Virus record (IMG/VR): IMGVR_UViG_3300025083_000103 | Location: 1 to 36,542 of that record | Source of the DNA: a virus | Reading direction: 5' to 3' (one strand) | Length of the DNA stretch: 36,542 nt | Part shown: positions 1 through 36,542 of the stretch, piece by piece | Layout of the letters: each line of letters begins with the position of its first letter | How positions within the stretch are numbered: position 1 is the first letter of the stretch | Made by a program: the position numbers and the translations under genes | Notes under the pieces: model-generated | The model's input: only the letters and a program-made list of their open reading frames with translations | Told to the model about the DNA's origin: nothing | Databases searched by the model: none

Positions 1-273
1 GGATCATACGCGCGTCAGACTGCGGCGTTTACTGTGAGCGGCACAAGCCCGACAGAGGCAACAACGGGTTCAGCTATTGAGTTTCCCACGGCGACAGCTT
101 CTTGGGGTACGGTGACATACGCGGGCGTGTACGACGCGTCTACTGGCGGCAACTTGCTTGCGTATGCTGAGTTGACCGATCCAAGCGACTTCTCGACTGC
201 GCTGCCCAAAGCGATTGATACGGGCGACATTTTCCGCATTTCGGCAGGTAATCTTAAAATACGATTGGACTAA
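1..273 (+). CDS. Gp80-like tail appendage protein, C-terminal part (5' truncated)
   Basis: The reading frame is open from base 1 to a TAA at 271-273 and begins inside the protein, so the 5' end is missing. It matches residues 48-137 of the complete copy at 34993-35406 almost exactly, and the first 119 bases are identical to that copy. The protein resembles small phage tail proteins of the Gp80-like type that sit just before a fibre gene. The internal ATG at 34 is not a real start, because the homologous copy runs through it. The fibre gene begins 3 bases after its stop. What I see is the homology; the tail-appendage role is inferred from family resemblance and position. Confidence 0.75.
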   Translation, partial: GSYARQTAAFTVSGTSPTEATTGSAIEFPTATASWGTVTYAGVYDASTGGNLLAYAELTDPSDFSTALPKAIDTGDIFRISAGNLKIRLD

Positions 274-395
274 TCCATGGCTACTCTTGTTACACGTTCT
301 GGGAAGGGGTCTCCGCTTACCCATGCTGAAGTTGATGCCAACTTTACAAACCTAAACACGGATAAGCTGGAGCTATCTGGCGGCACCATGACGGG
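1..395. repeat. long direct repeat, copy 1 (partner 35134-35528)
   Basis: Bases 1-119 are identical to 35134-35252. Alignment continues without gaps, with scattered substitutions, to 395/35528, then fades within the fibre genes. The constant offset is 35,133. It covers the end of the Gp80-like gene and the fibre anchor. It could be genome-end overlap of a circular map or a tandem duplication. Confidence 0.95.
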
Positions 396-2466
396 TAACT
401 TATCCTTCGGCGACAACGACAAAGCCATATTCGGTGCTGGGTCTGATTTGCAGATTTACCATGATGGGACTAGTAGTTATATTGAGGATGCAGGAACAGG
501 TTGGTTACTTTTAAAAGGTAATGATAGTGGTGTAGCGGCTCAAGACGGTTCAGGTAACTATGTTTGGTATGCAAACCAAAATGGTTTCGGTGCTTACTAT
601 AACAACGCAGTCAAACTCGCCACCACCAGCACAGGTGTAGACATCACTGGGACTTTGACCAGCGATGGTTTGTCAGTCGATGGCGGCACGATCAAGCTGG
701 ATGGGAACTATCCTGTTGGTACAGGCAACGTGGCGTTGGGCAATGCTGCGTTAGATGATGGTTCCTTGAGTGGTGGGTATAATGTTGCCGTAGGAAATAC
801 TGCTCTTACGGCTAATACTACAGGTGATAATAGTGTTGCCATAGGTTATGCTTCTTTATCCTCAAACACAACAGGTAACTATAACGTCGCATTGGGTGGG
901 AACTCTTTAGAAAACAACACAACAGCAAGTAATAACAGCGCAGTCGGCCTTCAGGCACTACGTGCTAATACATCGGGTGCAAACAATACAGCAGTTGGTA
1001 TGCAGTCTCTACTCTCCAACACCACCGCAAGCAACAACACCGCAGTTGGGTATCAGGCGGGATATAGTAATACTACAGGTACACGCAATGCGTTCTTTGG
1101 TAAGTCGGCGGGTCAAGCAACTACCACAGGTAACTATAATGCGTTTATTGGAATGGATGCTGGCTATGAAAATACGACAGGTTCTAGCAATACGGCTTTG
1201 GGAAATTCTGCCTTAGAGCATAACACCACCGCAAGTAACAACACAGCGGTTGGGTATCAGGCTGGGTATAGCTTTACCACAGGTGGTTACAGCACTGTAA
1301 TGGGATATCAAGCAGCACAAAATGCCACCGCTGGTGGTACAGTTGCTATAGGTCATTCCTCTGCTAAAAATAACACTGGCGCAGGGATTACTGCTGTTGG
1401 TTCTAATGCTTTGACTACTAATACAAGTGGTACAAGTTCTACTGGCATAGGCACCAATGCCCTAAATGACAACACAACAGGCAGCTATAACGTAGCTTTA
1501 GGCCGTGATGCTTTGTACAACAACACCACCGCAAGCAACAATACAGCAGTTGGGTATCGGGCAGGGTATAATACAACAGTAGGTTTCAACAACACTCTGT
1601 TTGGTGATAGAGCAGGATATTCAAACGTAGGCAATCGTGGCAATACGTTCCTTGGTCAAGAAAGTGGATACAGCTATAACAAATCTGGAAACAACGACAC
1701 CTTCAACACTTTTGTTGGATACCGTGCAGGATACTCTCAAAGCACAGATGGTTTGTATAACACTTATGTTGGCTTATTTAGTGGTCAACACATAACAACA
1801 GGCTCCAAGAACACTATCATCGGTGGCTACAACGGCAACCAAGGCGGCTTGGACATCCGCACCTCAAGCAACAACATCGTGCTGTCGGATGGGGATGGTA
1901 ATCCTAAATTCCAAATGGACTATCATGCTAGATCAATCATTCAAGCTACATACGGTACAGGTTATGGTTTAAAAATTAATAACTCTGCCTCATCTGGTTT
2001 AGTTGAAGGTATTGAAATAAATACAACAAATGTATCTACTGACAGCTCTTCTGGACATTACTTAAAGTGTAACGACAGCACCACAACACGTTGCGTTATT
2101 GACTTAAATGGTAACTTGCGAAACCACGACAACAGTTATGGCGCTATCTCTGACCAACGTGCAAAACAAGACATTGTCGATGCGGCAAGTCAATGGGATG
2201 ACGTTAAGGCCATTCAGGTTCGTAAATACAAAAAGATTGATGATGTAACAGCGTATGGTGATGCTGCGCCAGTAGAGATTGGTGTAATTGCGCAAGAGTT
2301 AGAAGCATCTGGAATGGGTGGCCTTGTTGATACACCTGAAAATGAAGACGAAATGAAGTCCGTCAAATACTCCATCCTCTACATGAAAGCAGTCAAGGCA
2401 CTGCAAGAGGCAATGGATCGGATTGAAACCTTAGAGGCAAAAGTAACTGCCCTAGAAAACGCATAA
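277..2466 (+). CDS. tail fibre with left-handed roll repeats and C-terminal S74 self-cleaving chaperone
   Basis: A 729-residue fibre. Residues 1-40 (VTRSGKGSPLTHAEVD, LELSGGTMTG) form an anchor module shared with the fibre at 35410. Residues about 145-520 are many degenerate repeats of the form N-T-A-V/I-G-x-x-A/S-L/G, as in YadA-head/LbR-type beta rolls of adhesins. The last ~105 residues are an intramolecular chaperone of the peptidase S74 family, starting SDQRAKQDI. Ser625 and Lys630 have the five-residue spacing of the S74 catalytic dyad, so the tail should cleave itself off before Ser625 after trimerisation. The C terminus is a predicted coiled coil. It follows the Gp80-like gene by 3 bases. 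Exact host-binding specificity cannot be read. Repeated DNA blocks within the gene are listed separately. Confidence 0.9.
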   Translation: MATLVTRSGKGSPLTHAEVDANFTNLNTDKLELSGGTMTGNLSFGDNDKAIFGAGSDLQIYHDGTSSYIEDAGTGWLLLKGNDSGVAAQDGSGNYVWYANQNGFGAYYNNAVKLATTSTGVDITGTLTSDGLSVDGGTIKLDGNYPVGTGNVALGNAALDDGSLSGGYNVAVGNTALTANTTGDNSVAIGYASLSSNTTGNYNVALGGNSLENNTTASNNSAVGLQALRANTSGANNTAVGMQSLLSNTTASNNTAVGYQAGYSNTTGTRNAFFGKSAGQATTTGNYNAFIGMDAGYENTTGSSNTALGNSALEHNTTASNNTAVGYQAGYSFTTGGYSTVMGYQAAQNATAGGTVAIGHSSAKNNTGAGITAVGSNALTTNTSGTSSTGIGTNALNDNTTGSYNVALGRDALYNNTTASNNTAVGYRAGYNTTVGFNNTLFGDRAGYSNVGNRGNTFLGQESGYSYNKSGNNDTFNTFVGYRAGYSQSTDGLYNTYVGLFSGQHITTGSKNTIIGGYNGNQGGLDIRTSSNNIVLSDGDGNPKFQMDYHARSIIQATYGTGYGLKINNSASSGLVEGIEINTTNVSTDSSSGHYLKCNDSTTTRCVIDLNGNLRNHDNSYGAISDQRAKQDIVDAASQWDDVKAIQVRKYKKIDDVTAYGDAAPVEIGVIAQELEASGMGGLVDTPENEDEMKSVKYSILYMKAVKALQEAMDRIETLEAKVTALENA
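1018..1566 (+). repeat. three dispersed ~40-bp direct repeats inside the fibre gene
   Basis: Near-identical DNA blocks starting AACACCACCGCAAG and running to TTGGGTATC occur at about 1018-1058, 1222-1262 and 1522-1562, with a weaker relative near 916. They encode the repeat NTTASNNTAVGY. The distances of 204 and 300 bases are multiples of three, so recombination between copies would delete or add whole beta-roll coils in frame. Confidence 0.8.
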
Positions 2467-2490
2467 CATTAGTCAAAAAAGGAGAAAGAC

Positions 2491-2712
2491 ATGACTGATA
2501 CATCAACTGCGGAAGAAATCGCACAACACTATTTAGCTATGGGACATAGCGTAGAGTTACTAAACGCTGGACAACCAGAGGACATGGAAGATGCCGATTG
2601 GGCTGACACTGTGTCACGCAACGTAGAGCATTTACAGCTAATGGTTGCTAAAGACTTCTGGACTACAGAAGACATGACAGCGGTCAACGCAGCTATTGCA
2701 GCAAACTCATAA
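2491..2712 (+). CDS. small acidic fibre-locus protein, unknown
   Basis: A 73-residue acidic protein with a clear ribosome site (AAAGGAGAAAGAC) before its ATG, 24 bases after the S74 fibre. It has an amphipathic helical N-terminal half (EEIAQHYLAMGHSVELL) and is rich in Asp and Glu. I recognise no domain. Its place between the fibre and a DUF6447-like gene suggests a virion or fibre-assembly accessory. That is inference from position only. Confidence 0.75.
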   Translation: MTDTSTAEEIAQHYLAMGHSVELLNAGQPEDMEDADWADTVSRNVEHLQLMVAKDFWTTEDMTAVNAAIAANS

Positions 2713-2723
2713 GGAACAGACAG

Positions 2724-2957
2724 ATGGCGAAAGACGAAAAGAAAACCATCACGGTCAATGACGTAGAATACAACTTGGGTGACTTCACAGCGGAGCAATC
2801 AGCAATGCTGAACCACATCCAAGACTTAGACCGCAAGCTAAGTAACGCACAGTTTAACCTAGATCAGCTTATGGTTGGTCGTGAGGCGTTTGTAGCGAGG
2901 CTGGCGACATCACTGGAAGCTGAACCAGAGGAAGCCGAAGAAATCGCGGCTGAGTAA
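2724..2957 (+). CDS. DUF6447-like small protein
   Basis: A 77-residue protein starting at ATG after AAGGAACAGACAG. The pattern ITVNDVEYNLGDFTAEQ followed by a helix of the type LNHIQDLDRKLSNAQFNLDQL fits the DUF6447 family found next to fibre genes in marine and cyanobacterial phages. A short beta hairpin is followed by a coiled coil and an acidic tail. No enzymatic residues are evident. Function is unknown; a trimeric or coiled-coil structural role near the fibres is plausible. Confidence 0.75.
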   Translation: MAKDEKKTITVNDVEYNLGDFTAEQSAMLNHIQDLDRKLSNAQFNLDQLMVGREAFVARLATSLEAEPEEAEEIAAE

Positions 2958-2962
2958 AAAGC

Positions 2963-3817
2963 ATGACCGCATACTACGTACAGCCAGAACCCAGTGCATC
3001 GGGCGGCGAGGCATACTGGTTGGAAGGGTATGCGGTTGGCGATGCCAAGTTTGCCGCAGCGCAGTCTGACGGCACAAGCACAACGCTTATTGCGTCATCT
3101 CGCGTAAAACAAACGGGGCTGCGCTCTGACGGCACATCATCATCACTCTTTGGCGGAAATCGTGTTGTCGCAGGCGCACTTGTTCAGGAGCCAGTGACGG
3201 CAACTGTGACAGGCGTTACGCGCGTTCGGCAGGGGGCAATACGCGCGGACGGCACAAGCACTACGTTGATCGCCTCTGTGCGCGTTCGCAACCCTGCGGC
3301 GATCTCACAGTCGCGCTATGTACTCGCGGACTACTGGGAATACGGCTACGCTGACTACGGTCAAAACTCAGACGTGCGCATTGCTGGCAACAAGACGACA
3401 GACAGCGGCATACTCTCTGCGGGATCGGCGACATCTCTTATTGGCGTTACGCGCGTCAAACCGTCTAGCATGCTTGCGATTGCAGAGGCAGAGGTTGACG
3501 TAGTAGGCGGGGCAATACGCACAAACATCGGCGTTCTTAGTGATGCAAACGGCATATTCGTTATTAATGGAAACGTGTCCTACGACAGCAGCGCGGTATC
3601 TGAGGCTGTGTCTGAGGCTCTGGGGGCGCTTACGATCAAGTGGCTTGACCAAGCAGAAGATGCAGACGTTTGGACAGATCAAGCCGAAGATGGCGACACT
3701 TGGGCAAATGTGGTAGAAGCAAGCGGAACGTGGACAACTGTATCTGAGGACACCGACATTTGGACTGACGTATCTGAGGACACAGACACTTGGACTGACC
3801 TAAGTCCGCTAACATAG
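2963..3817 (+). CDS. repeat-rich tail/fibre-associated structural protein
   Basis: A 284-residue protein of beta-type repeats. Units of the form DGTSTTLIASxRV recur at residues about 36-50, 56-70, 96-110 and more loosely at 140-160. The C terminus (about residues 232-282) is a tandem array of roughly 13-residue units with the pattern W-T/A-x-x-x-E-D/A-x-D/G-x-W, ending DTDTWTDLSPLT. It lies between the DUF6447-like gene and another fibre-like gene. The repeated architecture and position suggest a fibre or decoration component. No ribosome site is obvious. No named family is recognised. Confidence 0.7.
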   Translation: MTAYYVQPEPSASGGEAYWLEGYAVGDAKFAAAQSDGTSTTLIASSRVKQTGLRSDGTSSSLFGGNRVVAGALVQEPVTATVTGVTRVRQGAIRADGTSTTLIASVRVRNPAAISQSRYVLADYWEYGYADYGQNSDVRIAGNKTTDSGILSAGSATSLIGVTRVKPSSMLAIAEAEVDVVGGAIRTNIGVLSDANGIFVINGNVSYDSSAVSEAVSEALGALTIKWLDQAEDADVWTDQAEDGDTWANVVEASGTWTTVSEDTDIWTDVSEDTDTWTDLSPLT

Positions 3818-3867
3818 ACGCGAGGCAAGGAATGCTATATATTGCCAGTAACGCATAGGAGATTTAG

Positions 3868-4653
3868 ATGGCTATAACCATTACAAAGCCAACCGTAGGC
3901 GGTTCTGAGGATAGTTGGGGGACAACCATCAACACCGCGTTAGATGACATTGTTTTAGAGATAAACAGCAATGCTGACGGTACAAATACAGTCACACCTA
4001 ATCTTGGGTCGGGTTGGGAGGTTGGTGGCGTAGCAGTTACGTCAACTGCGGCAGAGCTAAACATCTTAGACGGTGACACAGCAGCAACATCTACAACAGT
4101 CGTTGATGCTGACCGCGTTGTATTCAACGACGATGGCACAATGAAGCAGGTCGCTATGAGCGATCTTAAAACCTACATCAATGCCTCTGTGGGTTCTGGA
4201 TCAGTAACAAGCGTTGCAATGTCAGTGCCGACAGGTTTGACGGTTAGCGGATCACCAATTACAACAAGCGGCACGTTGGCGGTTTCACTGCAATCAGGTT
4301 ACAGCATCCCAACAACGTCAAGCCAATCAAACTGGAACACGGCGTATGGCTGGGGCGATCACTCCACGCAGGGATATGCAACAGGCACGATCCCGACAAA
4401 CAACAATCAGCTAACCAACGGGGCTGGATACATCACATCTGTCCCGACAACAGCAGCCGCCGTTGGGACTTACACTTTTGCTCTTTCAAGCAGTGTTCCA
4501 AGTCCGATCCCAGCAGGTACTGTGAGCGGAAGCCAGTTGACGTATTCTGATGGATCGGGGACTAACAACGTAGGCACTAGCCCCAATGTGGGTACATGGC
4601 GTTTGATGGCGCACTACGTCAATCGTTCCTCGCTATTTGTCCGTGTGTCATAG
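3868..4653 (+). CDS. fibre-like protein with Ser/Thr/Gly-rich repeats
   Basis: A 261-residue protein with a good ribosome site (AGGAGATTTAG). The N terminus (MAITITKPTVGGSEDSWGT) resembles the start of phage fibre proteins that carry the GSEDSWGTTIN motif. Residues 110-200 are low-complexity Ser/Thr/Gly (SGSVTSVAMSVPTGLTVSGS, then WGDHSTQGYAT), typical of phage tail-fibre shafts. No S74 or other chaperone domain is visible. The gene that begins at 36525 starts with the same MAI and may be an allele of it. Likely a second fibre or fibre extension. Confidence 0.75.
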   Translation: MAITITKPTVGGSEDSWGTTINTALDDIVLEINSNADGTNTVTPNLGSGWEVGGVAVTSTAAELNILDGDTAATSTTVVDADRVVFNDDGTMKQVAMSDLKTYINASVGSGSVTSVAMSVPTGLTVSGSPITTSGTLAVSLQSGYSIPTTSSQSNWNTAYGWGDHSTQGYATGTIPTNNNQLTNGAGYITSVPTTAAAVGTYTFALSSSVPSPIPAGTVSGSQLTYSDGSGTNNVGTSPNVGTWRLMAHYVNRSSLFVRVS

Positions 4654-4662
4654 GAGATTTAA

Positions 4663-5070
4663 ATGAGTGTAGACATTACAGAGTATCGCAATGCTAGTTC
4701 GCTGAACGCAGAAAATACTATGATGGACGTAGAGATCAATCACCCAGTGTATGGGTGGATACCTTACACTATACACCCTGATGACACGGACATGACCATA
4801 GATAACGCAGCGTTGTTATCTCTTGTGGGTAATGACTTTGCAGCATTTTCTCAGGCTGACCATGATGCGCGTGTCGCGGTATCCGTTAGAGTTCAGCGTG
4901 ACGCAAAACTAAGCAGCGAAGTAGACCCAATCGTAAGCAACGCACTACGCTGGGCAGACTTAACCGCAGAAAAACAAAACGAGTGGACACAGTACCGCAC
5001 TGATTTGCTCAACGTCCCACAGCAAGCAGGCTTTCCAAACACCATCAACTGGCCCACTAAACCAGAGTAA
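4663..5070 (+). CDS. tail fibre assembly chaperone-like protein
   Basis: A 135-residue protein, 9 bases after the fibre-like gene, with ribosome site AGGAGATTTAA. The C-terminal third reads RWADLTAEKQNEWTQYRTDL then VPQQAGFP and INWPTKPE. This is the signature of the phage tail assembly chaperone family (Phage_tail_APC), whose members lie immediately downstream of fibre genes and help fibre maturation. The N-terminal half is not recognised. Chaperone activity is inferred from family and position. Confidence 0.8.
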   Translation: MSVDITEYRNASSLNAENTMMDVEINHPVYGWIPYTIHPDDTDMTIDNAALLSLVGNDFAAFSQADHDARVAVSVRVQRDAKLSSEVDPIVSNALRWADLTAEKQNEWTQYRTDLLNVPQQAGFPNTINWPTKPE

Positions 5071-5075
5071 CGCGC

Positions 5076-6575
5076 ATGGCTCTCATACCGCTTAAAATCC
5101 CCGCAGGCTTCTACCGCACAGGTACGGAGTTGGACGCTTCTGGTCGCTGGCGTGATGGCTCACTTGTTCGCTGGCGTGACGGGTCACTGCGCCCTATCGG
5201 CGGTTGGCGTGTAAACGAAAACATTGCGAGCATTACGGCAAATGCGCCGCGCTCTATGCACACTTGGGAAAGCAACAACGGCACACGTTATGTTGCAGCG
5301 GGATCATACAATGAGCTATTCGCAGTTGTTTCTGGTGGTACGGCATACGACATTGCGCCCACAGACCTAACAGCAGGGTCAGAGGATGCTGCGGTCAATA
5401 TTGGTTATGGGTACGGCTTTTATGGTGCAGGCGCATACGGCACACCGCGTCCTGACACTGGCAACCTTGTTGCTGCAACTACATGGTCGCTAGATAACTG
5501 GGGCGAGTACCTTGTCGCGTGTTCCACAGCAGATGGGCGCATACTTGAATGGCAGCTTGGTACTACGTCTGACGCGGCGGTCATTGCAGGCGCACCAACA
5601 AATAACAGCGGCATAATCGTCACAGAGGAACGCTTTATCTTTGCACTAGGTGCAGGCGCAAATCCACGCAAGGTGCAGTGGTGTGACCGTGAGGACAATA
5701 CAACATGGACACCCGCAGCAACCAACGAGGCTGGCGACATAGAATTGCAAACCTCTGGGCAAATCCAGACTGCTATTCGTACACGCGGTCAGACGTTAAT
5801 CATTACAGACATTGACGCACACACAGCGCGTTACATCGGCCCACCCTATGTGTATGGGTTTGAGCGTGTTGGCACATCTTGCGGCATCATTTCACGTCAG
5901 GCGGCGGCAGACGTTGACATGGGCGTGTTCTGGATGGGCAACGGTGGTTTCTATCGCTTTGATGGTAACTTGGTTTCTGAAATACCGTGCGATGTTCACG
6001 ATTATGTGTTCGGAGACATCAATACCTCTCAGAAAAGTAAAACGTGGGCGTTTACCAACGGTCAGTTTGGCGAAATTTGGTGGTTCTATGCATCTTCTAA
6101 TAGCACGGAGATTGATCGCTATGTGGCGTTTGATTACAAGGAAAGCCACTGGCTGATTGGCAATCTATCCCGCACCTCTGGCGCGTCACGCGGCGTGTTT
6201 GAGTATCCAATGTTGATGGATGCAAATGGCGCGATGTATGACCATGAGGTAGGCTTATCCTACGCGGTCAGTGGCGCAGAGCAAGCTGTATTCGCAGAAA
6301 GTGGCCCGATCAGCATTGGCAACGGCGATAACATCATGCAGGTTACAGACCTAATTCCTGACGAAAAGACGCAGGGCGATGTAGATGTAATCTTCAAAAG
6401 CAGATACTACCCCAACGACACAGAATATACGCATGGGCCGTATACACCGTCTAGCCCGACAGCGGTGCGCTTCTCAGGTCGCCAGATCAGAATGCGCGTA
6501 GAGGGCGATGCACCATATGCAGCGTGGCGTGTTGGCACAATGCGGGTAGACGCAAAAGCGGGTGGGCGTAGGTAA
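5076..6575 (+). CDS. large tail/stabilisation-type virion protein
   Basis: A 499-residue protein rich in aromatic beta strands. It begins with IPLKIPAGFYRTGTELDASG and then has the duplicated motif GRWRDGSLVRWRDGSLRPIGGW. Features such as the NGGFYRFDG and ERFIFALGAG segments suggest a beta-propeller-like or tubular tail protein. Proteins of this size and position in podoviruses are tail-hub or tail-needle-associated stabilisers. I do not recognise a defined Pfam family with confidence. It overlaps the next gene by one base (TAATG), implying translational coupling. Confidence 0.75.
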   Translation: MALIPLKIPAGFYRTGTELDASGRWRDGSLVRWRDGSLRPIGGWRVNENIASITANAPRSMHTWESNNGTRYVAAGSYNELFAVVSGGTAYDIAPTDLTAGSEDAAVNIGYGYGFYGAGAYGTPRPDTGNLVAATTWSLDNWGEYLVACSTADGRILEWQLGTTSDAAVIAGAPTNNSGIIVTEERFIFALGAGANPRKVQWCDREDNTTWTPAATNEAGDIELQTSGQIQTAIRTRGQTLIITDIDAHTARYIGPPYVYGFERVGTSCGIISRQAAADVDMGVFWMGNGGFYRFDGNLVSEIPCDVHDYVFGDINTSQKSKTWAFTNGQFGEIWWFYASSNSTEIDRYVAFDYKESHWLIGNLSRTSGASRGVFEYPMLMDANGAMYDHEVGLSYAVSGAEQAVFAESGPISIGNGDNIMQVTDLIPDEKTQGDVDVIFKSRYYPNDTEYTHGPYTPSSPTAVRFSGRQIRMRVEGDAPYAAWRVGTMRVDAKAGGRR

Positions 6576-20617: not shown

Positions 20618-21130
20618 TTACTTTTTAATTGCGTATTTTATTGCGGCGGCTGCGATTAAGCTAATCACTAGCTTTCCGAATATTTGACCCTCGACATACG
20701 CGAGAGAACCAAAGGCTATATATAGGAAAACTATGCTGTCCATGACTGCCCCAGCTAGGCCAGATGCAGCAACAGCCAAAGCCCTGCCATATTTGCGCAC
20801 ATATGTGTAAGCGCCAAAGTCCACCAATTCTGACGCGCCAAATGCCAAGATGCTTGCAAGCGCAATAAATGGATCGGCAAGCAGGTATGACAAGATTGCG
20901 CCCACTATTATACCACCCAACGCCCATTTCACACCTAGATGCTCTTGGACTTGATCGCGCAAAACCAAAGCCGCGCCTACCATCAAAACACCACTAGGCG
21001 CTGTCATGCCAAATCCAACTGGGATCATGCACGGCCCATCTGTTATGCAGAACGTGCCAACATTACCAATCATCCAGTTTGCTGCGGGTATTGTTGCTAT
21101 ATACCCTGCTAAATATCCCCACTTTTTCAT
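20618..21130 (-). CDS. yhhQ: VUT/YhhQ-family queuosine-precursor transporter
   Basis: A 170-residue integral membrane protein with about five to six hydrophobic segments. The family signature is clear: AALVLRDQVQEHLG (the RDxVQ motif), LADPFIALASILAFGASELV, DFGAYTYVRKYGRAL, and AVMDSIVFLYIAFGSL followed by GQIFGKLVISL. This is the VUT (COG1738) family, whose E. coli member YhhQ imports the 7-deazaguanine precursors preQ0 and preQ1. It is shorter than YhhQ (about 220 residues). The gene starts 14 bases after dpdA with GAGAGGATATTGAC as ribosome site. It should sit in the host inner membrane and bring in preQ0 for the adjacent transglycosylase. Substrate is inferred from family. Confidence 0.9.
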   Translation of the reverse strand: MKKWGYLAGYIATIPAANWMIGNVGTFCITDGPCMIPVGFGMTAPSGVLMVGAALVLRDQVQEHLGVKWALGGIIVGAILSYLLADPFIALASILAFGASELVDFGAYTYVRKYGRALAVAASGLAGAVMDSIVFLYIAFGSLAYVEGQIFGKLVISLIAAAAIKYAIKK

Positions 21131-22694: not shown

Positions 22695-22886
22695 ATGAAT
22701 AGCGACACAAAGCCATGCATGCTGCACCTAAGTAAGACTGCAGACGAAGTAATAGAGCGACTGCGATTTGATGATGTGTACAAACCACAGGGCCGCAGAA
22801 AGCACAGCCGCAGCGACTTTGTAGAAGACGCAATCCTGTTTTACGCGAAACACTTGGAAGCGCAGCTAGATGGTCAACGGGCGTAA
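22695..22886 (+). CDS. ribbon-helix-helix (Arc/CopG-like) small regulator
   Basis: A 63-residue protein with ribosome site GTGAGG. The N-terminal strand (KPCMLHLSKTADEVIERLRF) is followed by a basic turn (GRRKHSRSDFVEDAILFYAK) that resembles the second helix of RHH regulators, where S-R-S-x-F-V-x-x-A is typical. It is the first gene right of the dyad promoter, a usual place for an autoregulator. Assignment is by pattern and position. Confidence 0.7.
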   Translation: MNSDTKPCMLHLSKTADEVIERLRFDDVYKPQGRRKHSRSDFVEDAILFYAKHLEAQLDGQRA

Positions 22887-23268
22887 TAAGGGCGCATCGT
22901 TTGAGCGCAGCATAGCAAACATGCTATTTGCTGATCTGGGGCTAAACGCAAAGCGCGATATTGAGCAGTACCGTGCAGCGGATCATGGGGACATCGTAAC
23001 AGACGATGAGAGCTGGCCCTATGTCATCGAATGCAAACGCTATGGGGGCAAACACTTCACGTTTCGCCCAGAGTGGTGGGTGCAAGTCGAGAAAGCTGCC
23101 AATGCTGCAGGAAAAGAACCTGTGCTTGTCTATAAGTATGACCGCCAGCCAATCACGGTTGTCATGCGCCTAGAATACTTAATGGGTGACGGAGTACATC
23201 ACGAAGAAAAAGTACGCATGGATTGGGATGCGTTTATCTACATCGCAAGGGAGAATTGGGATGGTTAA
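22870..23268 (+). CDS. PD-(D/E)XK nuclease, Holliday-junction-resolvase-like
   Basis: A 132-residue nuclease. Residues fit the Hjc/VRR-like archetype: GASFERSIANML with Glu12, the GDI strand with Asp41, and VIECKR with Glu54 and Lys56. They are followed by a helix with conserved Gln (WWVQVEKAANAAGKEPVLVY). It probably resolves branched DNA formed during recombination-dependent replication or before packaging. The start overlaps the preceding gene by 17 bases. It overlaps the next gene by 8 bases. Confidence 0.82.
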   Translation: MVNGRNKGASFERSIANMLFADLGLNAKRDIEQYRAADHGDIVTDDESWPYVIECKRYGGKHFTFRPEWWVQVEKAANAAGKEPVLVYKYDRQPITVVMRLEYLMGDGVHHEEKVRMDWDAFIYIARENWDG

Positions 23269-23545
23269 ATTTGAGCTTATAGAGCCAGAGAATAAAAATC
23301 ATATTTGGTCACTACAGCGTGTCGTGCCAACTGACATAGGAACATGGACCGCGAGTGAGGAGCCTTTTCTTATCTTCCATCTAAACAGTGTCGAGAGTGC
23401 AGGTTCCACGGAAGCGCACCGCCTTGGCTATGAGGTTTTTCAAATAAACTTCAAAAGCGGCAAAACTATTTGGGTAGAGGTTCCAAAAGAAAAGAAAAAA
23501 ACGCTTCTGGAAGAACTTATTTGGTGCATAGGGAAAACAAAATGA
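23261..23545 (+). CDS. small protein of the recombination operon, unknown
   Basis: A 94-residue protein. ATG at 23261 is preferred to the upstream in-frame start because AAGGGAG lies 7 bases before it. It has mixed strands (MVKFELIEPENKNHIWSLQR; YEVFQINFKSGKTIWVEVPK) and a C-terminal basic helix. It is coupled at both ends (8-base overlap before, ATGA after) to nuclease genes. It may be an accessory of the RecE-like enzyme. No family is recognised. Confidence 0.7.
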   Translation: MVKFELIEPENKNHIWSLQRVVPTDIGTWTASEEPFLIFHLNSVESAGSTEAHRLGYEVFQINFKSGKTIWVEVPKEKKKTLLEELIWCIGKTK

Positions 23546-24366
23546 CACAAATTGAATACAACCTGCCAGACTATGAGTATCACGATAAAGCGATACATCC
23601 GCATATCTCAAGCAGTGACGTAAAGACCGTCCTAAGCAAATCCTTGCTACACTGGGCAGGTCAAGAGCGTAAAGAGAGTATTGCCTTTGACATAGGCAAA
23701 GCTGTGCATGCGTTAATCCTAGAGCCTGAAAAGGATTTAGTTGTGCGCGGTCCAGAGGATAGGCGCGGCAGCAAATGGAAGGATGCCAAAGCAAAGGCTG
23801 AAAAAGCTGGCAAAGTGTTGCTGACGGAAAAAGACTACGACACTTGCATGGCTATGGCGACAAACGCATTCATGCACTGCGACTTCCTCAAGGAAACTGT
23901 GTACTCTGATGCATTCGTCGCAGAGGCCAGCATCTTCACAACCTGCAGCAAAACTGGTGTGGACATAAAGGTACGCCCAGATGGGCTAATCATGCCGCAA
24001 AAGAAAACGGATGAGCCTTACATAATTGACATCAAAACCACGCAGGACGCATCGCCAGAGGCATTTCATAAAGAAATTCGGCGGTATAACTATGATGTGC
24101 AGATTGCTTTCTACCTGCACACTATGTGGGAAGCGGGTTTGCCCTGCAAAACCATGTATCTCATTGCAGTTGAGAAAAATGCACCATATGTCACGACTGT
24201 GCATGAACTAAGTGAACTACACCTAGCGCACGCACACAAACGCATGCTTGCCACATTGGAAAAGATCGGCAATGCTATGCGAACAGGGGAATTTACGACA
24301 GATTGGCCTGACGTAAATCAAGTCTTTCTTCCTGCATGGATGGAAGATGGAATAGAAGCATTTTGA
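23542..24366 (+). CDS. RecE-like exonuclease (PDDEXK, DUF3799 type)
   Basis: A 274-residue protein, ATG at 23542 in an ATGA overlap with the previous stop. It has the RecB-type nuclease motifs in order: GKAVH (His56), RPDG (Asp147), DIKT (Asp163, Lys165) and QIAFY (Gln187, Tyr191). RecE-type exonucleases degrade one strand to leave 3' ends for annealing. The PDDEXK domain in phages is usually paired with a single-strand annealing or binding protein, and here an SSB-like gene follows. Likely used in replication or recombination. Confidence 0.87.
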   Translation: MTQIEYNLPDYEYHDKAIHPHISSSDVKTVLSKSLLHWAGQERKESIAFDIGKAVHALILEPEKDLVVRGPEDRRGSKWKDAKAKAEKAGKVLLTEKDYDTCMAMATNAFMHCDFLKETVYSDAFVAEASIFTTCSKTGVDIKVRPDGLIMPQKKTDEPYIIDIKTTQDASPEAFHKEIRRYNYDVQIAFYLHTMWEAGLPCKTMYLIAVEKNAPYVTTVHELSELHLAHAHKRMLATLEKIGNAMRTGEFTTDWPDVNQVFLPAWMEDGIEAF

Positions 24367-24383
24367 GAGAAGGAGACAAGACC

Positions 24384-25025
24384 ATGAAAATGCTAACACC
24401 AAACCAAGTTCTATTCGAGAACGTAACCGCGCAATACCCGCGCATCAACCAAACCTATCGCTTTGACAACATGGAAAACAAAACTGTGCCATGCAAGCCA
24501 GAGGAAGATGGGGCCGCATATGAGGTTTCATTCTTGATGAGCAATGAAGATGCCACGGAATTTCTGAAGAAATGCGATGAGATTTACGCGGAGACTGCGG
24601 GTGCGGACACAAAGCGCAAGTGGAAGCCCAAGCCTATGTATTACCCATATAAGGAGCTAGATGACGGGCAACCGCAAGGCAAAGCCAAGCTCAAAGGTGC
24701 TTACAATGGCGAAGCAACAAAGCCACCTCTGCAAAAAGACGCAAACCGCAACTCTTTGCCACCTGATTTTCGCCTAACCTCTGGCAGCAAAGTCAACGTA
24801 TGGGGGCAGCTATTCGCGTATAATACGGGGGCTGTGTCTGGTGTTGGGCTTCGGTTGCGCGGCGTGCAGGTCTTGGAACTGCAAGAGGAAGCGTCAAACG
24901 ATCCTTTCAGCGCGACTGATGGATTTACTGCAGCAAAGCAAGAGGATGATCCCTTTGGCTTGCCGCCAGTGACCAAGGCACCACCCGCGCCAAGCGCAGA
25001 GTTTAGCGACGAAATCCCATTCTAA
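24384..25025 (+). CDS. single-stranded DNA-binding protein (DUF2815/gp2.5-like)
   Basis: A 213-residue protein with ribosome site AGAAGGAGACAAG. The core resembles phage OB-fold ssDNA-binding proteins of the DUF2815 / T7 gp2.5 kind. It has LFENVTAQYPRINQTYRFDN, PMYYPYKELDDGQ and SGSKVNVWGQLFAYNTGAVS, then GVGLRLRGVQVLEL. The C terminus (about residues 165-213) is disordered, acidic and ends SDEIPF, the classical tip used by SSBs to recruit partners. It lies between the exonuclease and the primase-helicase, as expected. Confidence 0.87.
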   Translation: MKMLTPNQVLFENVTAQYPRINQTYRFDNMENKTVPCKPEEDGAAYEVSFLMSNEDATEFLKKCDEIYAETAGADTKRKWKPKPMYYPYKELDDGQPQGKAKLKGAYNGEATKPPLQKDANRNSLPPDFRLTSGSKVNVWGQLFAYNTGAVSGVGLRLRGVQVLELQEEASNDPFSATDGFTAAKQEDDPFGLPPVTKAPPAPSAEFSDEIPF

Positions 25026-30366: not shown

Positions 30367-31765
30367 GAATGCGCAGAACACGATGCTGCAGTTCGTTGAG
30401 CGGTACGGCAAAAAGCCTGCTTTATTTGTGCAGGAAGTGCTTGGCGTGGAGCCATTGCCGTATCAGGCGGAATTTCTGGAAGCGATTGCGTCTGGCGAAC
30501 GCAAGATTAGCATTCGGTCTGGTCATGGTACTGGTAAGTCTACAGCAGCATCGTGGGCAATGCTATGGTATTTTTTGATGCATTACCCAAATAAAGTTGT
30601 TGTAACTGCGCCAACTTCTAGTCAGCTTTTTGATGCGTTGTTTGCAGAGCTAAAGCGCTGGATAAATGAGCTTCCAGAGGGCTTGCAGAGCATACTGAAC
30701 ACCAAGTCTGACCGTGTTGAGCATACCTCTGCACCTGCAGAGATGTTTATATCTGCTAGAACAAGCCGTGCAGAAACGCCAGAAGCCTTGGCTGGTGTTC
30801 ACTCAGAGCATGTTATGTTGGTGGTGGATGAAGCCTCTGGTGTGCCTGAGCAGGTATTTGAGGCTGCTGCTGGGTCTATGTCAGGTCATAACGCGACTAC
30901 GATTATGCTGAGCAACCCTACGCGAAGCAGCGGTACGTTTTTCGAAAGCCAGACGCGCATGGCAGATAGCTGGTGGACACGCCGTTGGTCATGCGTGGAT
31001 AGCCCCTTAGTTAGCGATGAGTTTGTTGATGAGATGCGCTTGCGCTATGGTGAGGAAAGCAATGCGTTTCGCATTCGTGTTCTGGGCGAGTTTCCTCTTG
31101 CGGATGATGACACGATTATCCCGTTTCATCTTGTGGAGGCAGCAACTCATCGTGACGTTGAAGTAGACATAGAGCGAAAACCTGTTTGGGCTGTCGATCC
31201 TGCTCGTTTTGGTTCTGATAGAACTGCGTTTTGCAAGCGTGTAGGCAATGTTATCACTGAAGTTAAAAGCTGGCGTGGCTTAGATTTGATGCAAACTGTT
31301 GGTCGCGTGATGGCGGAATATGAAGCACTAAATCCAAGCGCAAGACCTTCAGAGATATTGGTTGATAGTATCGGCGTTGGCGCTGGAGTTGTTGATCGGC
31401 TTAGGGAGCTAGGTGCTCCTGTGCGAGGTGTAAATGTTGCCGAAAGTCCAAGTATGGGCGAAACTTACAATAATCTTAGAACTGAGCTTTGGTTTAAAAC
31501 GAAAGCGTGGTTAGAGGATCGTAGCTGCAAGGTACCAAAAGATGACGAGCTTTTGGCTGACCTTACAAGCATACGTTACAGTTTTACTTCTTCAGGGAAA
31601 ATGGCAGCGGAAAGCAAGGATCAGATGAGAAAGCGCGGGCTTCGATCTCCTGACCTTGCGGATGCTGTGTGTTTAACTATGGCATCAGATGCCGCAACTG
31701 CCCTTTCTGGTCCAATGACGACTTGGCGTGGCGAGCTGCGGCGCGGTTTAAAGGGCATTGCTTGA
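30359..31765 (+). CDS. terL: terminase large subunit
   Basis: A 468-residue packaging motor. ATG at 30359 (MSENAQNTMLQF) is preferred to the upstream TTG because AAGGTGA lies 7 bases before it. Walker A is SGHGTGKST (residues about 53-61). Walker B-type VMLVVDEASG is near 152-161. The coupling motif follows in TIMLSNPTRSSG. The nuclease domain has AVDPARFGSDRT with the first metal-binding Asp, ILVDSIGVGAGVVDRLRELG, and the C-terminal DLADAVCLT Asp. It cuts and translocates DNA into the procapsid through the portal. Confidence 0.95.
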   Translation: MSENAQNTMLQFVERYGKKPALFVQEVLGVEPLPYQAEFLEAIASGERKISIRSGHGTGKSTAASWAMLWYFLMHYPNKVVVTAPTSSQLFDALFAELKRWINELPEGLQSILNTKSDRVEHTSAPAEMFISARTSRAETPEALAGVHSEHVMLVVDEASGVPEQVFEAAAGSMSGHNATTIMLSNPTRSSGTFFESQTRMADSWWTRRWSCVDSPLVSDEFVDEMRLRYGEESNAFRIRVLGEFPLADDDTIIPFHLVEAATHRDVEVDIERKPVWAVDPARFGSDRTAFCKRVGNVITEVKSWRGLDLMQTVGRVMAEYEALNPSARPSEILVDSIGVGAGVVDRLRELGAPVRGVNVAESPSMGETYNNLRTELWFKTKAWLEDRSCKVPKDDELLADLTSIRYSFTSSGKMAAESKDQMRKRGLRSPDLADAVCLTMASDAATALSGPMTTWRGELRRGLKGIA

Positions 31766-32239
31766 TTAGCTGCCATGCCTATCAGAAAACCCGCCTAGTT
31801 GTTGTTCGGCGGCTTTTCTTGCTGCAATAGCTTGTTGCTTTGTCTTAAATGTTCCAATCTGCTTTTCTTTTATTTTTGCGATCCACTTGTCTTTCTTTTT
31901 ACTTACACCAACGTGCCCGCTTGTATTATCTGATCTAAGTTTGGCATTTCTTTGATTTTCGGACCTTGTGACAACTCGTAGATTTTTAAATCTATTGTCG
32001 GAGCGATTTCCATTTATATGGTCGACTTCGCCATTAGGCCATTCTCCTAAAGTAATAGCCATAGCAACTCTATGAGCAGTAAGGGTTTTGGTTCCTATAG
32101 CTCCCTTGAGATATCCACTGTGATGTACGTTTGTAAAAACTTGTTTCTTAGTTCGCCGCGAAAACAAAAATCCTGTATCTGGATCGTAGCTCAGCTTATT
32201 GCGCAATTCTTCAATGCTTGGTAAGTTTTGTTTAGCCAT
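31766..32239 (-). CDS. HNH homing endonuclease with AP2-like DNA-binding tail
   Basis: A 157-residue protein. The N-terminal part has YDPDTGFLFSRR and TAHRVAMAITLG. The HNH core is GEVDHINGNRSDNRFKNLRV with His in DHINGN and the helix VTRSENQRN. The tail (SGHVGVSKKKDKWIAKIKEK, then IGTFKTKQQAIAARKAAEQQ) is an AP2/NUMOD-like DNA-binding module. It is the only minus-strand gene in the late block and abuts the terL stop with no gap. This is typical of a mobile homing endonuclease inserted next to terminase. Strong ribosome site AGGAGGGGCGTT. Confidence 0.9.
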   Translation of the reverse strand: MAKQNLPSIEELRNKLSYDPDTGFLFSRRTKKQVFTNVHHSGYLKGAIGTKTLTAHRVAMAITLGEWPNGEVDHINGNRSDNRFKNLRVVTRSENQRNAKLRSDNTSGHVGVSKKKDKWIAKIKEKQIGTFKTKQQAIAARKAAEQQLGGFSDRHGS

Positions 32240-32269
32240 AACGCCCCTCCTATGGGCTGGTTGGTTAGA

Positions 32270-32328
32270 GGCTTACTTATGCGTCAACATAAGTGAGCCT
32301 TGCTGGTATGTTATCAAACCTTTAAATT
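32270..32328 (+). promoter_or_regulatory. hairpin and candidate promoter for the small basic-protein genes
   Basis: GGCTTACTTATG (32270-32281) pairs with CATAAGTGAGCC (32288-32299) over 11 of 12 positions. Just after it, TTGCTG (32300-32305) stands 17 bases before TAAATT (32323-32328), a moderate sigma70-type promoter reading right toward 32409. A promoter here would restore transcription after the minus-strand insertion. Not experimentally supported. Confidence 0.45.
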
Positions 32329-32408
32329 ATTTCAATAAATATAAGAAAAATCACGGACGTTGATGCAAAACAAGTAATGTGATACGTTTGCAGCAAAAGG
32401 AGATCACT

Positions 32409-32513
32409 ATGGCCTATAAGTCTAAATCTTTTTCACCGCCCAAGAGTTGCCCGATGAAAGCTGCGTGTAAACGTGCTGGTAAGTGCCTTGGTATGAAGCA
32501 TAGCAAAAAGTAA
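32409..32513 (+). CDS. tiny basic Cys-containing protein
   Basis: A 34-residue ORF with strong ribosome site AAGGAGATCACT: MAYKSKSFSPPKSCPMKAAC then KRAGKCLGMKHSKK. It is Lys-rich with three cysteines six residues apart, as in small zinc-binding or DNA-binding phage peptides. It shares one base with the next start (TAATG). Coding status is supported by ribosome site and coupling. Confidence 0.65.
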   Translation: MAYKSKSFSPPKSCPMKAACKRAGKCLGMKHSKK

Positions 32514-32674
32514 TGCCTGCAGCAAAAAAGAAATCGTCTAGCCCAAAGCCCAAAAACCCAGCGCTGTATGCTAGGGTAAAGGCAGAGGCTAAGAAGAAGT
32601 TTAAGGTTTATCCTTCTGCGTATGCCAATGGCTGGCTGGTGCGTGAGTATAAGAAGCGTGGTGGAAAATACTGA
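32513..32674 (+). CDS. DUF5872-like small basic protein
   Basis: A 53-residue protein. The core (NPALYARVKAEAKKKFKVYP, then SAYANGWLVREYKKRGGKY) fits the DUF5872 family found in marine phages and giant viruses. The N terminus is Lys/Ser-rich. Coupled to both neighbours by TAATG and TGATG. Function is unknown; DNA association in the virion is plausible from its charge. Confidence 0.78.
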   Translation: MPAAKKKSSSPKPKNPALYARVKAEAKKKFKVYPSAYANGWLVREYKKRGGKY

Positions 32675-32895
32675 TGGCTAAGAAGCCTAAAGGTGGTTTA
32701 ACCAAGTGGTTCAAGGAAGATTGGCGCGATGTTAAAACAGGTAAGAAATGTGGTCGAAGCGGCAAGAAAGATGCTGGCAGACCTTATCCTGCGTGTCGCC
32801 CAGCAAGTAAAGCTAAGTCTGCATCGGCTAAGTCTGCTGCTAAAAAGAAAACAGGACCAGCAAGAATAAGCTGGAAGAAAAAAGGTAAGAAGTAA
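32674..32895 (+). CDS. DUF6321-like small basic protein
   Basis: A 73-residue protein. Its N-terminal part (GGLTKWFKEDWRDVKTGKKC, then GRSGKKDAGRPYPACRPASK) fits the DUF6321-like motif with WF...W, CGR and YPxCRP, which usually neighbours DUF5872 genes in phages and giant viruses. The C terminus is a Lys/Ala-rich tail. Start in a TGATG overlap. May condense or protect DNA; inference only. Confidence 0.75.
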   Translation: MAKKPKGGLTKWFKEDWRDVKTGKKCGRSGKKDAGRPYPACRPASKAKSASAKSAAKKKTGPARISWKKKGKK

Positions 32896-32899
32896 TGTG

Positions 32900-33091
32900 A
32901 TGTTTACTGCATTTGTTCTCTTATGCGCCCAGAATTACTGCTTTGCAGTCGGTGGTCCTGCGTATGTCGATGAGAATGAATGCATAGCGGATTTCATGCA
33001 GAACGGGGTTCCCTCTTTGCAGTTGAAATATCCAACGTATACAATCACGCAGGTTAAGTGTTATGAATGGGAAAAACAGATAAGGTCGTAA
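32900..33091 (+). CDS. small exported Cys-containing protein
   Basis: A 63-residue protein. ATG at 32900 is preferred to the GTG one codon before. The N terminus is a short hydrophobic signal-like segment (MFTAFVLLCAQNYCFAVGG). The mature part has ENECIADFMQNG and ITQVKCYEWEKQ, a probable disulfide pair. The layout resembles the 54-residue protein at 17752. It could be secreted to the periplasm; function is unknown. Confidence 0.62.
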   Translation: MFTAFVLLCAQNYCFAVGGPAYVDENECIADFMQNGVPSLQLKYPTYTITQVKCYEWEKQIRS

Positions 33092-33092
33092 A

Positions 33093-34154
33093 ATGAAAGC
33101 AGGAGCAGCATTAGGATTACTCGCTGGCTTAGGTGCGTTGAATGCACTGGGTGGTGGCAAAAACGGCACAGGCAAGCGCTTCACTGGCTTGATGGACATG
33201 CTAGACGGTGGTGGCGCAGGTGCGTCTGGAGATAAGTTTGAGGGCGGTGGCTTGCTGTCCATGCTAGGCAATCTCTTTGCTAAACCGCTTGAAGCGCAGG
33301 ATAATGTTGAGCGCATTGCTGCTGACACGAATGCGACTAAAGCTGTGACAAAAACGCTTGAGGATATGGCTAAGGGCGGCGCACTTACATCTCGACTAGA
33401 CGGTAAGGACGGCTTACTTTCACCTGTTGTCCCCGTTGCGTCTGATCCTCGCAGCTTTCAGCAAGGAACGGAGCCATCTACGCTTACTGAGGCGCAAAAA
33501 GAAGCTATTGTTATGGGACAGGCCATGCCTTCTGCTGAATTTGATCCTCGTAATTTTCAGCAAGGGACAGAGCCGTCAACTCTCACAGAAAATCAACGTA
33601 TGCGTGCTGCTGGCATTCTTGCTGGGCAAGCGGCTATGGCACCTGTTACGCAAGCCCAGCTTCAAGGCGGCGCTGAAAGCCTTGCAAATGCGTCTAATGT
33701 TTTAAATAGTCAGGGCGCTATTGAAACGCCAACAATGCCAAAAACTCCTGACCCTATGGGGTTATTCGCTCGCCAAACAATGATGCCACCAGCAGCAACC
33801 AATATGGATACCCCTGACGTAAGCGCCCTGCTTGACGTTCCTTCCACGCCACCAAATGAAGCGCAAGCAATGCTGCAGTCCTTGTCAGCAACAATACCTC
33901 AGAGGGCAATGGAAAATGATCCTGCAATTGTACAAGGGTACAAGGATTATGTAATTTCTGGCGGCAGAGATGACTACTCGACTTACTACAAAGGTCGCCC
34001 TGAGTATCAGGCGGAGCGTCAATTATTTACTGAAACAGGCGGCACTTTATTTGATTTGCCTGAAACAGAGCGCAAACGCCTTATAGCTGAGCGTGCTGAT
34101 ATTATTCGCAGAGAGGCACAAAAACCAATGCCATTTACAGGACCAGCATTCTAA
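33093..34154 (+). CDS. virion protein with internal repeat, unknown
   Basis: A 353-residue protein. The N terminus is Gly/Ala/Leu-rich (MKAGAALGLLAGLGALNALG), a likely membrane-interacting helix. A 16-residue unit, DPRSFQQGTEPSTLTE, occurs at residue 118 and again (one change) at 151, exactly 33 residues later. The C-terminal part (YKDYVISGGRDDYSTYYKGR) is mixed. It lies between small basic genes and the adaptor, so a virion or ejection function is plausible. It ends by overlapping the next ATG by one base. Confidence 0.68.
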   Translation: MKAGAALGLLAGLGALNALGGGKNGTGKRFTGLMDMLDGGGAGASGDKFEGGGLLSMLGNLFAKPLEAQDNVERIAADTNATKAVTKTLEDMAKGGALTSRLDGKDGLLSPVVPVASDPRSFQQGTEPSTLTEAQKEAIVMGQAMPSAEFDPRNFQQGTEPSTLTENQRMRAAGILAGQAAMAPVTQAQLQGGAESLANASNVLNSQGAIETPTMPKTPDPMGLFARQTMMPPAATNMDTPDVSALLDVPSTPPNEAQAMLQSLSATIPQRAMENDPAIVQGYKDYVISGGRDDYSTYYKGRPEYQAERQLFTETGGTLFDLPETERKRLIAERADIIRREAQKPMPFTGPAF

Positions 34155-34372
34155 TGCCAGTTAAGCGCAAAAAAATACCTGCAAGCAGAAAGTACGCTAA
34201 TGGCACGACTTACAAAGACAGTCAGGGCAAAACTCATAAGCGTACATCTGCTAAAGGTACAAAGCGTGGTGACGCTTATTGCGCTCGTTCTAGCGGTCAA
34301 AAGCAAACTGAAAAAGTTAAGGTTCGCCGCAAGGCTTGGGGCTGTCGCGGTAAAAAATCAGTGAGAAGTTAA
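34154..34372 (+). CDS. small basic protein related to GTKRGDAYCARS family
   Basis: A 72-residue protein coupled to the preceding gene (TAATG). It is strongly basic with MPVKRKKIPASRKYANGTTY and TKRGDAYCARSSGQKQTEKV, the latter a motif seen in small phage proteins near DUF5872/DUF6321 genes. It ends AWGCRGKKSVRS with the second cysteine. Together with 32409-32895 it makes four Lys-rich small genes around one virion gene. DNA-binding is inferred from charge. Confidence 0.7.
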   Translation: MPVKRKKIPASRKYANGTTYKDSQGKTHKRTSAKGTKRGDAYCARSSGQKQTEKVKVRRKAWGCRGKKSVRS

Positions 34373-34993
34373 ATGGCTATTACAACCTATGCAGAACTTA
34401 AAACCGCAATAGCCAACTGGCTAAACCGTGATGATCTTACGAGTGTTATCTCTGATTTCATCAGTCTGGCTGAAGCCGACATGGATCGCAAAGTGCGTCA
34501 CTGGCGTATGGAGAAACGCGCGACTGTGCAGCTAGATGACCAGTATTCGCGCGTACCCTCCGATTGGCTGGAAAGCATTCGCTTTTACCTGTCTGGCGGT
34601 CAGACGTATGAGCTGCGTCAAACCTCGCACTCTGACATGATTAATCGCCGCATGAACGCTGCAAACGTGGCGGGTCGTCCCCAGTATTTCACGATGAGCG
34701 ATGGCGCGTTTGAAATCTTTCCAACGCCTGACACTGCGTACACGGCAGAGCTTCTGTATTACGGCAGAACGGCTGCGCTGTCTGACGGCAACACGAGCAA
34801 CTGGGTTCTTGAATATGCGCCTGATGCGTATCTGTATGGTGCGCTTGTGCATTCCGCGCCTTATCTTGTTGACGATCAGCGCACTCAGATTTGGGCATCA
34901 CTCTATCAATCTGCCATAGACAATGTTAATATGGCATCGGACAAAGCGCGTAGTACGACTTCGGGTATGCGCATGAGCATTAGGAGTTACTGA
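34373..34993 (+). CDS. head-tail adaptor protein (SU10-adaptor-like)
   Basis: A 206-residue helical protein beginning MAITTYAELKTAIANWLNRD, then ISDFISLAEADMDRKVRHW. This pattern is typical of the SU10-type adaptor (gp4/gp11-like connector family), which forms the ring below the portal. It continues VPSDWLESIRFYLSGGQTYE and a beta segment (YTAELLYYGRTAALSDGNTS), and ends in helices. Correct length and near structural genes. It overlaps the next gene by one base (ATGA region). Confidence 0.82.
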   Translation: MAITTYAELKTAIANWLNRDDLTSVISDFISLAEADMDRKVRHWRMEKRATVQLDDQYSRVPSDWLESIRFYLSGGQTYELRQTSHSDMINRRMNAANVAGRPQYFTMSDGAFEIFPTPDTAYTAELLYYGRTAALSDGNTSNWVLEYAPDAYLYGALVHSAPYLVDDQRTQIWASLYQSAIDNVNMASDKARSTTSGMRMSIRSY

Positions 34994-35406
34994 TGAGCTT
35001 TACAGATTATCTTGAGGACAAAATCCTTGACCACGTTTTTGGCGGCAATGCTTATACTGCGCCAGCTACGCTTTACGTTGGCCTGCATACATCTGCCTCT
35101 AGCGATAGCGCGGCGGGTACGGAAGTGTCTGGCGGATCATACGCGCGTCAGACTGCGGCGTTTACTGTGAGCGGCACAAGCCCGACAGAGGCAACAACGG
35201 GTTCAGCTATTGAGTTTCCCACGGCGACAGCTTCTTGGGGTACGGTGACATATGCAGGCGTGTATGACGCGTCTTCTGGCGGCAACTTGCTTGCTTATGC
35301 TGAGTTGACCGATCCAAGCGACTTTACGACTGCGCTACCTAAAGCAATAGACACGGGCGACATATTCCGCATTTCGGCAGGTAATCTTAAAATACGATTG
35401 GACTAA
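34993..35406 (+). CDS. Gp80-like tail appendage protein (complete copy)
   Basis: A 137-residue protein: MSFTDYLEDKILDHVFGGNA, then YTAPATLYVGLHTSASSDSA, then TEVSGGSYARQTAAFTVSG. This is the full-length homologue of the fragment at 1-273. The family occurs just before fibre genes and resembles mycobacteriophage Gp80-type tail proteins. It starts one base inside the adaptor stop and leads into the fibre at 35410 after 3 bases. From residue 88 on it differs from the first copy mostly at silent or conservative positions. Confidence 0.8.
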   Translation: MSFTDYLEDKILDHVFGGNAYTAPATLYVGLHTSASSDSAAGTEVSGGSYARQTAAFTVSGTSPTEATTGSAIEFPTATASWGTVTYAGVYDASSGGNLLAYAELTDPSDFTTALPKAIDTGDIFRISAGNLKIRLD

Positions 35407-35528
35407 TCTATGTCTACGATTGTTACACGTTCTGGAAAGGGTTCGCCGCTAACCCATGCCGAAGTTGATAGTAACTTCACTAATCTAAATACGGATAAGC
35501 TGGAGCTATCTGGCGGCACCATGACGGG
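35134..35528. repeat. long direct repeat, copy 2 (partner 1-395)
   Basis: The partner of the repeat at the window start, with the full Gp80-like gene upstream. The first mismatch is at 35253 (T versus C at 120). The shared part ends in the fibre anchor (LELSGGTMTG), after which each copy continues into a different fibre body. Confidence 0.95.
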
Positions 35529-36495: not shown

Positions 36496-36524
36496 TACAC
36501 ATTAGCTAATAGGAGTATCCGAAG

Positions 36525-36542
36525 ATGGCTATAAAAGTAAGC
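36525..36542 (+). CDS. start of the next gene (truncated at window end)
   Basis: ATG at 36525 follows AATAGGAGTATCCGAAG, a good ribosome site. Only MAIKVS is visible. It shares its first 10 bases with the fibre-like gene at 3868 (ATGGCTATAA), so it may be its allele, which would then directly follow this shorter fibre. That is a weak inference from six codons. Confidence 0.5.

Follow-up and report, generated by a model that had tools for sequence, protein, structure and literature searches.

Near the opposite ends of one viral contig of 36,542 bases (an IMG/VR virus record, called here the window) lie two tail fibre genes, and they raise the question of why they share short pieces of DNA and whether they belong to one phage at all. 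A sequence-only reading placed fibre 1 at 277-2466 (+ strand, 729 aa) and fibre 2 at 35410-36495 (+, 361 aa), coordinates that we confirmed, and took the pair for a modular swap with recombination joints at shared islands.

In the Pfam profile search the portal of the window matched the SU10 portal family (PF23899, 639 bits), and the gene at 34373-34993 (+), just 5' of the fibre locus, matched the SU10 head-tail adaptor (PF24175, 125 bits; PDB 7z47, E 6.6e-13). The full gp80 copy, of 137 aa at 34993-35406 (+), matched the GP4 'fiber I' family (PF23140, 140.7 bits against a cutoff of 27; PDB 8jou_a, E 5.7e-8; we take 8jou and 8jov to be GP4 entries). Since portal, adaptor and gp80 fall in SU10, SU10 and GP4 fibre I families respectively, the window comes from an SU10/GP4-like short-tailed phage, that is, a podovirus, and its portal is 48% identical to the nearest named portal. 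The phage is marine and uncultured, its genome of about 35.1 kb is circular or terminally redundant, and the locus runs from adaptor to gp80 to fibre. The left contig end also begins with the 3' part of a gp80-like virion gene (1-273, +), the same locus as 35134-35406 (tblastn, 98%). We also observed an HNH endonuclease gene (HNH_3, homing-endonuclease-like) at 31766-32239 (-), directly after the terminase gene, and a gene at 20618-21130 (-) resembling Vut_1, a putative vitamin uptake transporter, which is possibly an auxiliary metabolic gene. A tandem pair of adaptor-like matches lay 5' of gp80 in L011, L012, L014, L016, L018, L022, L024, L026 and L027, one member being 33-37% and the other 65-70% identical to the window adaptor.

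The anchor of fibre 1 (residues 1-40; 277-396, +) is common to both fibres, as had been claimed, with 37 of 40 residues and 104 of 120 bases the same. Beyond the anchor the bodies had been described as completely different, and this did not hold. The same bead of about 88 residues occurs in both, residues ~41-135 of fibre 1 being homologous to the two beads of fibre 2 (BLASTP, 163 and 90 bits); identity was 43% between residues 1-209 of fibre 1 and fibre 2, and 39% between the bead and the second fibre-2 bead. By profile search we found 191 such beads in 129 loci. A literature search for the bead peptides found no phage paper among those listed, and the AlphaFold model of anchor plus bead was of low confidence (mean pLDDT 66).

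Two DNA islands lie in the fibre 1 bead: island 1 (GDNDKAIFGAGSDLQIYHDGTSSYIED...; 397-501, +) and island 2 (KLATTSTGVDITGTLTSDG; 601-683, +). The segment VKLATTSTG, within the second, had been credited with 22 identical bases; the island is indeed identical in DNA, but the identical word has 24 bases and lies 4-5 bases from where it had been put, at 612-635 and, in the second bead of fibre 2, at 36312-36335 (+). For two genes of this size (2190 and 1086 bases) a 24-base match is expected about 1e-8 times, which excludes chance. Viral contigs contain the 23-mer AAACTCGCCACCACCAGCACAGG in 119 stretches or more. Island 2 is kept as DNA in relatives between flanks that could not be aligned (100% over 39 nt in L010, 95.5% over 67 nt in L008). 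The KLATTSTG island is therefore part of a repeated bead that is homologous in the two fibres, and does not stand isolated among bodies without relationship. Fibre 2 has a third DNA island at 36027-36089 (SNGDISFYEDTGTTAKLIWDAS), which recurs in most close relatives with ~86-94% identity and at positions that shift.

Population breakpoints were located by fitting a two-rate changepoint over gp80 and the fibre start, and were read from those pairs, 51 in number, whose identity ahead of the changepoint was 85% or more. They clustered at shared segments, mostly in two places: fibre nt 119-122, at the end of the anchor (joint A; window 395-398/35528-35531), and nt 177-212 (joint B), which is the DLQIYHDGSNSYI island at residues ~60-70, in island 1, and was absent from the earlier reading. 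The pairs L020/L021, L018/L019 and L011/L012 were 97-100% identical before the changepoint and 35-41% after it, an abrupt drop that gradual divergence does not explain. As the relatives are metagenomic assemblies, shared words could have led the assembler to create some of these joints. The anchor and the islands are also kept conserved by constraint on the protein, so that recombination does not account for every changepoint in diverged pairs.

The breakpoint proposed at 395/35528 is supported by this clustering among the 51 pairs, but the first joint of the window's own pair lies about 276 bases before it, at 119/35252. Similarity of the two arms begins 5' of the fibre (1-300 against 35134-35433, 94% identical). 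They are exact over 119 bases (1-119/35134-35252), following DNA that is near-identical for more than 4 kb upstream, but the last 154 bases of gp80 contain 13 differences and the 120-base anchor 16, and past fibre nt 119 identity drops to about 47%. The exchanged segment in this pair accordingly starts inside gp80, and the anchor travelled with the body. The gp80 gene itself moves: in L009, L017, L020, L021 and L025 its protein is 91-97% identical while the adaptors are only 44-46% identical. The spacer between gp80 and fibre was 6 bases in all 20 sequences examined. Third-position identity correlated at 0.84 between the halves of gp80 and at 0.60-0.65 between gp80 and the anchor; the anchor and the first bead showed hardly any correlation in their histories (Mantel r 0.11 at third positions, p 0.10).

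We further examined silent sites in 127 non-redundant beads (<75% nucleotide identity), leaving out of the codon statistics the loci fetched by an exact DNA word (L159-L274) to avoid bias. Several island codons lay far above their context-matched background: A72 was GCC in 84% against 14%, T76 was ACA in 95% against 55%, and S24 was AGT in 55% against 24%. The exact 21-base word was present in 13 of the 36 beads having the KLATTST peptide, against an expectation of 6.3 and a highest count of 12 among 5000 permutations, and beads with the exact word were no more alike in their variable middle (0.36 vs 0.39). Codon context was considered as a cause of these words and rejected: ACA is favoured before Gly, yet the excess survives context-matched backgrounds.

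Synonymous linkage in the beads fell from a z of about 1.5 at 1-2 codons to 1.2 at 3-5 and 0.6 at 6-12, and then to 0.2 and 0. In a matched sample, gp80 stayed at about 0.9-1.45 out past 90 codons; the adaptor control was flat (z ~0.2-0.4), with little or no short-range linkage. The same decay was seen with one bead per contig (2.4, 2.0, 1.1, 0.2, 0.0, 0.3) and in contigs that had been retrieved by searches other than those with gp80 and the adaptor. A subsampling run of the bead linkage gave a minimum of 0.99 (its mean, with zero variance, was unusable). A codon-pair effect alone was discarded, as it would not extend to 3-12 codons. Short-tract exchange is expected to leave such a decay with distance, and the bead codons, linked over 5-12 codons and not beyond while gp80 stays linked throughout, carry its signature.

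These measurements bear on the view that no exchange takes place at the islands, the fibres diverging fast under selection while protein function alone holds the islands in place. The islands are conserved in protein, and the other fully conserved bead positions (D3, D14, G32, G82) are at background codon use, both of which suit that view. It is nevertheless quite unlikely: it does not account for pairs that are 97-100% identical, silent sites included, before they fall, nor for silent-site words (A72 GCC, T76 ACA) that beat context-matched codon use, nor for linkage that falls with distance in the beads only. Exchange at shared islands, as the sequence-only reading had it, is upheld by the changepoint clusters, by the uncorrelated anchor and bead, and by the decay of linkage within beads. 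It is possible, if somewhat short of probable, that the islands of the bead serve as standard DNA adaptors in many otherwise unrelated aquatic phages, their silent positions kept alike by constant exchange; phage groups would then draw beads and distal parts from a pool common to them all, and fibre evolution would be effectively at linkage equilibrium past ~12 codons.

How the two fibres came to lie in one contig can be seen from two relatives. L085 consists of window 32001-35133 joined straight to 1-5095 (8228 bases, 0 mismatches), and holds in one piece the adaptor, a single gp80, fibre 1 and the genes that come after it. As L085 is continuous without a mismatch, the genome closes into a unit of about 35,133 bases that contains fibre 1 and a single gp80. 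L005, which carries fibre 2, is 99.9% identical to window 30514-36532 (3 mismatches and one gap in ~6 kb). Alternative fibres are thus found at the same place on near-identical backbones; the fibre-2 form was seen joined to the upstream backbone, and the fibre-2 contigs stop soon after fibre 2. Window 1-2490 and 34993-36542 are, on these alignments, alleles of a single fibre locus and not two genes of one phage; both are present since the contig continued beyond the point where it began and there took up the other form. Where a genome is circular or terminally redundant, a contig that runs into itself at a polymorphic site would capture both alleles in this way. The claim of a fibre swap is correct in that the versions are exchangeable, but these versions are population alleles on the overlapping ends of one contig.

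The exact 119-base overlap does resemble a k-mer-limited junction, and the fibre-2 arm might be an assembly chimera joined at that stretch, with fibre 2 coming from another phage. We consider this quite unlikely, since the join is also present in L005, a contig of its own, within 6 kb of 99.9% identical DNA; a chimera would still require another phage in which 119 identical bases lie beside 8% divergence, which is itself a sign of recent exchange. A tandem duplication, with gp80-fibre 2 beside gp80-fibre 1 in one phage and the contig cut between them, would fit the finding of both versions in one contig, each behind a gp80, but is very unlikely. The single gp80 continuous with fibre 1 in L085, with 0 mismatches, refutes it for one strain, and each of the 18 related records has exactly one gp80 copy and none has two; on these grounds we rejected a tandem gene pair. 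Programmed phase variation by an invertase or retroelement, whose usual outcome is two versions with a common start, is most improbable and was rejected, as both versions have the same orientation at the same place, no inverted repeats were found flanking the fibre locus, and no invertase-type recombinase was found among the genes scanned. One fibre locus with two population alleles, swapped by homologous recombination at shared short DNA, is very probably the correct reading.

The two alleles differ in build. Fibre 1, contiguous with adaptor and gp80 in L085, consists of the anchor, one bead, a roll-like array and an S74 domain. The array (730-1870, +, limits approximate; direct repeats D2, D4 and D5) is made of ~17-residue units, xxNTAVGYQAGYSNTTG. 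We counted seven NNTAVG-type motifs in fibre 1, none in fibre 2 and none in nine sampled relatives, in line with the reported restriction of a beta-roll array to one version. The S74 intramolecular chaperone with its C-terminal coiled coil (2149-2466, +) had also been recognized correctly: PF13884 matches residues 625-677, at the C-terminus, with 34.4 bits against a cutoff of 22, and the motif SDQRAK places the SDxxxK dyad at Ser625 and Lys630. Its Ser, Asp and Lys are invariant across 13 aligned sequences, and the S74 profile matches the MYRF ICA structure 7dc3 and the tail fibre 8jov. The AlphaFold model of the S74 region was of low confidence (mean pLDDT 62), and phmmer of fibre 1 against the PDB gave no match. 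Of the two window fibres S74 was matched in fibre 1 only, the fibre-2 version being visible just to the contig end; its presence varies at the locus (12 of 22 complete fibres, relatives and window together). Fibre 1 is a one-gene fibre whose S74 domain is predicted to cut itself off at Ser625 after trimerisation. In endosialidases and MYRF, cleavage by a Ser-Lys dyad is an established mechanism (PMC3742443).

Fibre 2, which is 100% identical in L005, has the anchor, two beads and a conserved NATIT C-terminus. This C-terminal cassette (..KLDASGNLDVVGSVNSNATIT; 36349-36492, +) was 58-100% identical in the 63 loci with a match, most of which have a MAIK-type gene within tens of bases of the NATIT end. 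In the window the gene after fibre 2 begins with an ATG at 36525 and is cut by the contig end after six codons (36525-36542, +; MAIKVS). In relatives, MAIK[VI]xGTxVI.. ORFs, often of 500-1200 aa, start just past the NATIT stop; the product in L281 has a lectin-like Laminin_G_3 domain, and those of L304 and L278 are tail proteins of phrog_5939. The following gene thus probably encodes a distal fibre protein, and fibre 2 is best read as the proximal shaft, probably the first of two genes that make up the fibre, the second being interrupted by the contig end, and not as a complete chaperone-free fibre. Its two beads and conserved docking end would be completed by the distal product. The L005 copy of the MAIK-type gene departs from the window copy from about codon 3, possibly a further joint, as read from the contig's last bases only. 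The C-terminus ..LDASGNLDVVGSVNSNATIT recurs in about 60 loci (36349-36542; L299-L351), a widespread two-gene layout. In L028-L033, L035, L047-L049 and L053-L055 a short protein (72-180 aa) with a similar anchor and a conserved ..IALG C-terminus follows gp80, and is perhaps a connector for another fibre protein.

The window also carries a set of recombination genes at 22870-25025 (+): a RusA-like resolvase/PDDEXK gene (22870-23268), a RecE-like exonuclease (23470-24366) and a Gp2.5-like ssDNA annealing protein (24336-25025). By analogy, such a set could make mosaics from short, imperfect homology, and we suggest that these enzymes may act at the fibre locus. Homologous recombination, probably by the phage's own exonuclease and annealing protein, would then exchange sequence wherever different fibres share short DNA, namely in gp80, at the anchor end and at the two bead islands. 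Together, gp80 and the first 40 fibre residues would form a constant socket, with everything beyond it exchangeable, and such an exchange may change the receptor.

From one contig and its relatives, these results show at which points the host-recognition gene is cut and joined in an uncultured marine phage population. They also offer a measurable signature of exchange at shared fibre segments, namely linkage between silent sites that is lost over a dozen codons. Two cautions follow for annotation: fibre loci at contig ends may be alleles rather than gene pairs, and an apparent loss of the chaperone may be a truncated two-gene fibre.

When we compared the locus with known systems, the adaptor, portal and gp80 homologues were common to the window and the tails of the podophages GP4 and SU10 (8jou, 8jov, PF23140, PF24175, PF23899). 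The 8jov tail fibre matches the window's S74 profile, and the sequence searches that we made found no beads there. Two tandem beads were found in fibre gp28 of cyanophage P-SCSP1u (PDB 8i4m, residues 796-957, E 3.2e-16), a T7-like phage, unlike that of the window. The P-SCSP1u fibre is described as resolved at its N-terminus (PMC10575957), and therefore the bead fold is probably still unsolved. The Ser-Lys dyad SDxxxK of endosialidase and MYRF S74 (ICA) is C-terminal, as in fibre 1, where cleavage is predicted. A Rad52-like phage system makes mosaics by homology-driven exchange that tolerates divergence (PMC3945230); the window has instead a Gp2.5-like annealing protein with a RecE-like nuclease, to which we would assign a comparable role. 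Fibre exchange in near-identical marine phages and receptor-binding mosaicism are already known. Host-recognition genes, tail fibres included, vary between otherwise near-identical co-occurring marine phages (PMC3909814), and receptor-binding proteins of close relatives have near-identical N-termini with unrelated C-terminal parts (PMC10684548). The metaviromic islands were defined by read recruitment (PMC3909814), and receptor-binding domain mosaicism by protein profiles that left the genetic process open (PMC10684548); what is added here is the DNA words at the joints, the placement of those joints to tens of bases, and the linkage signature at silent sites.
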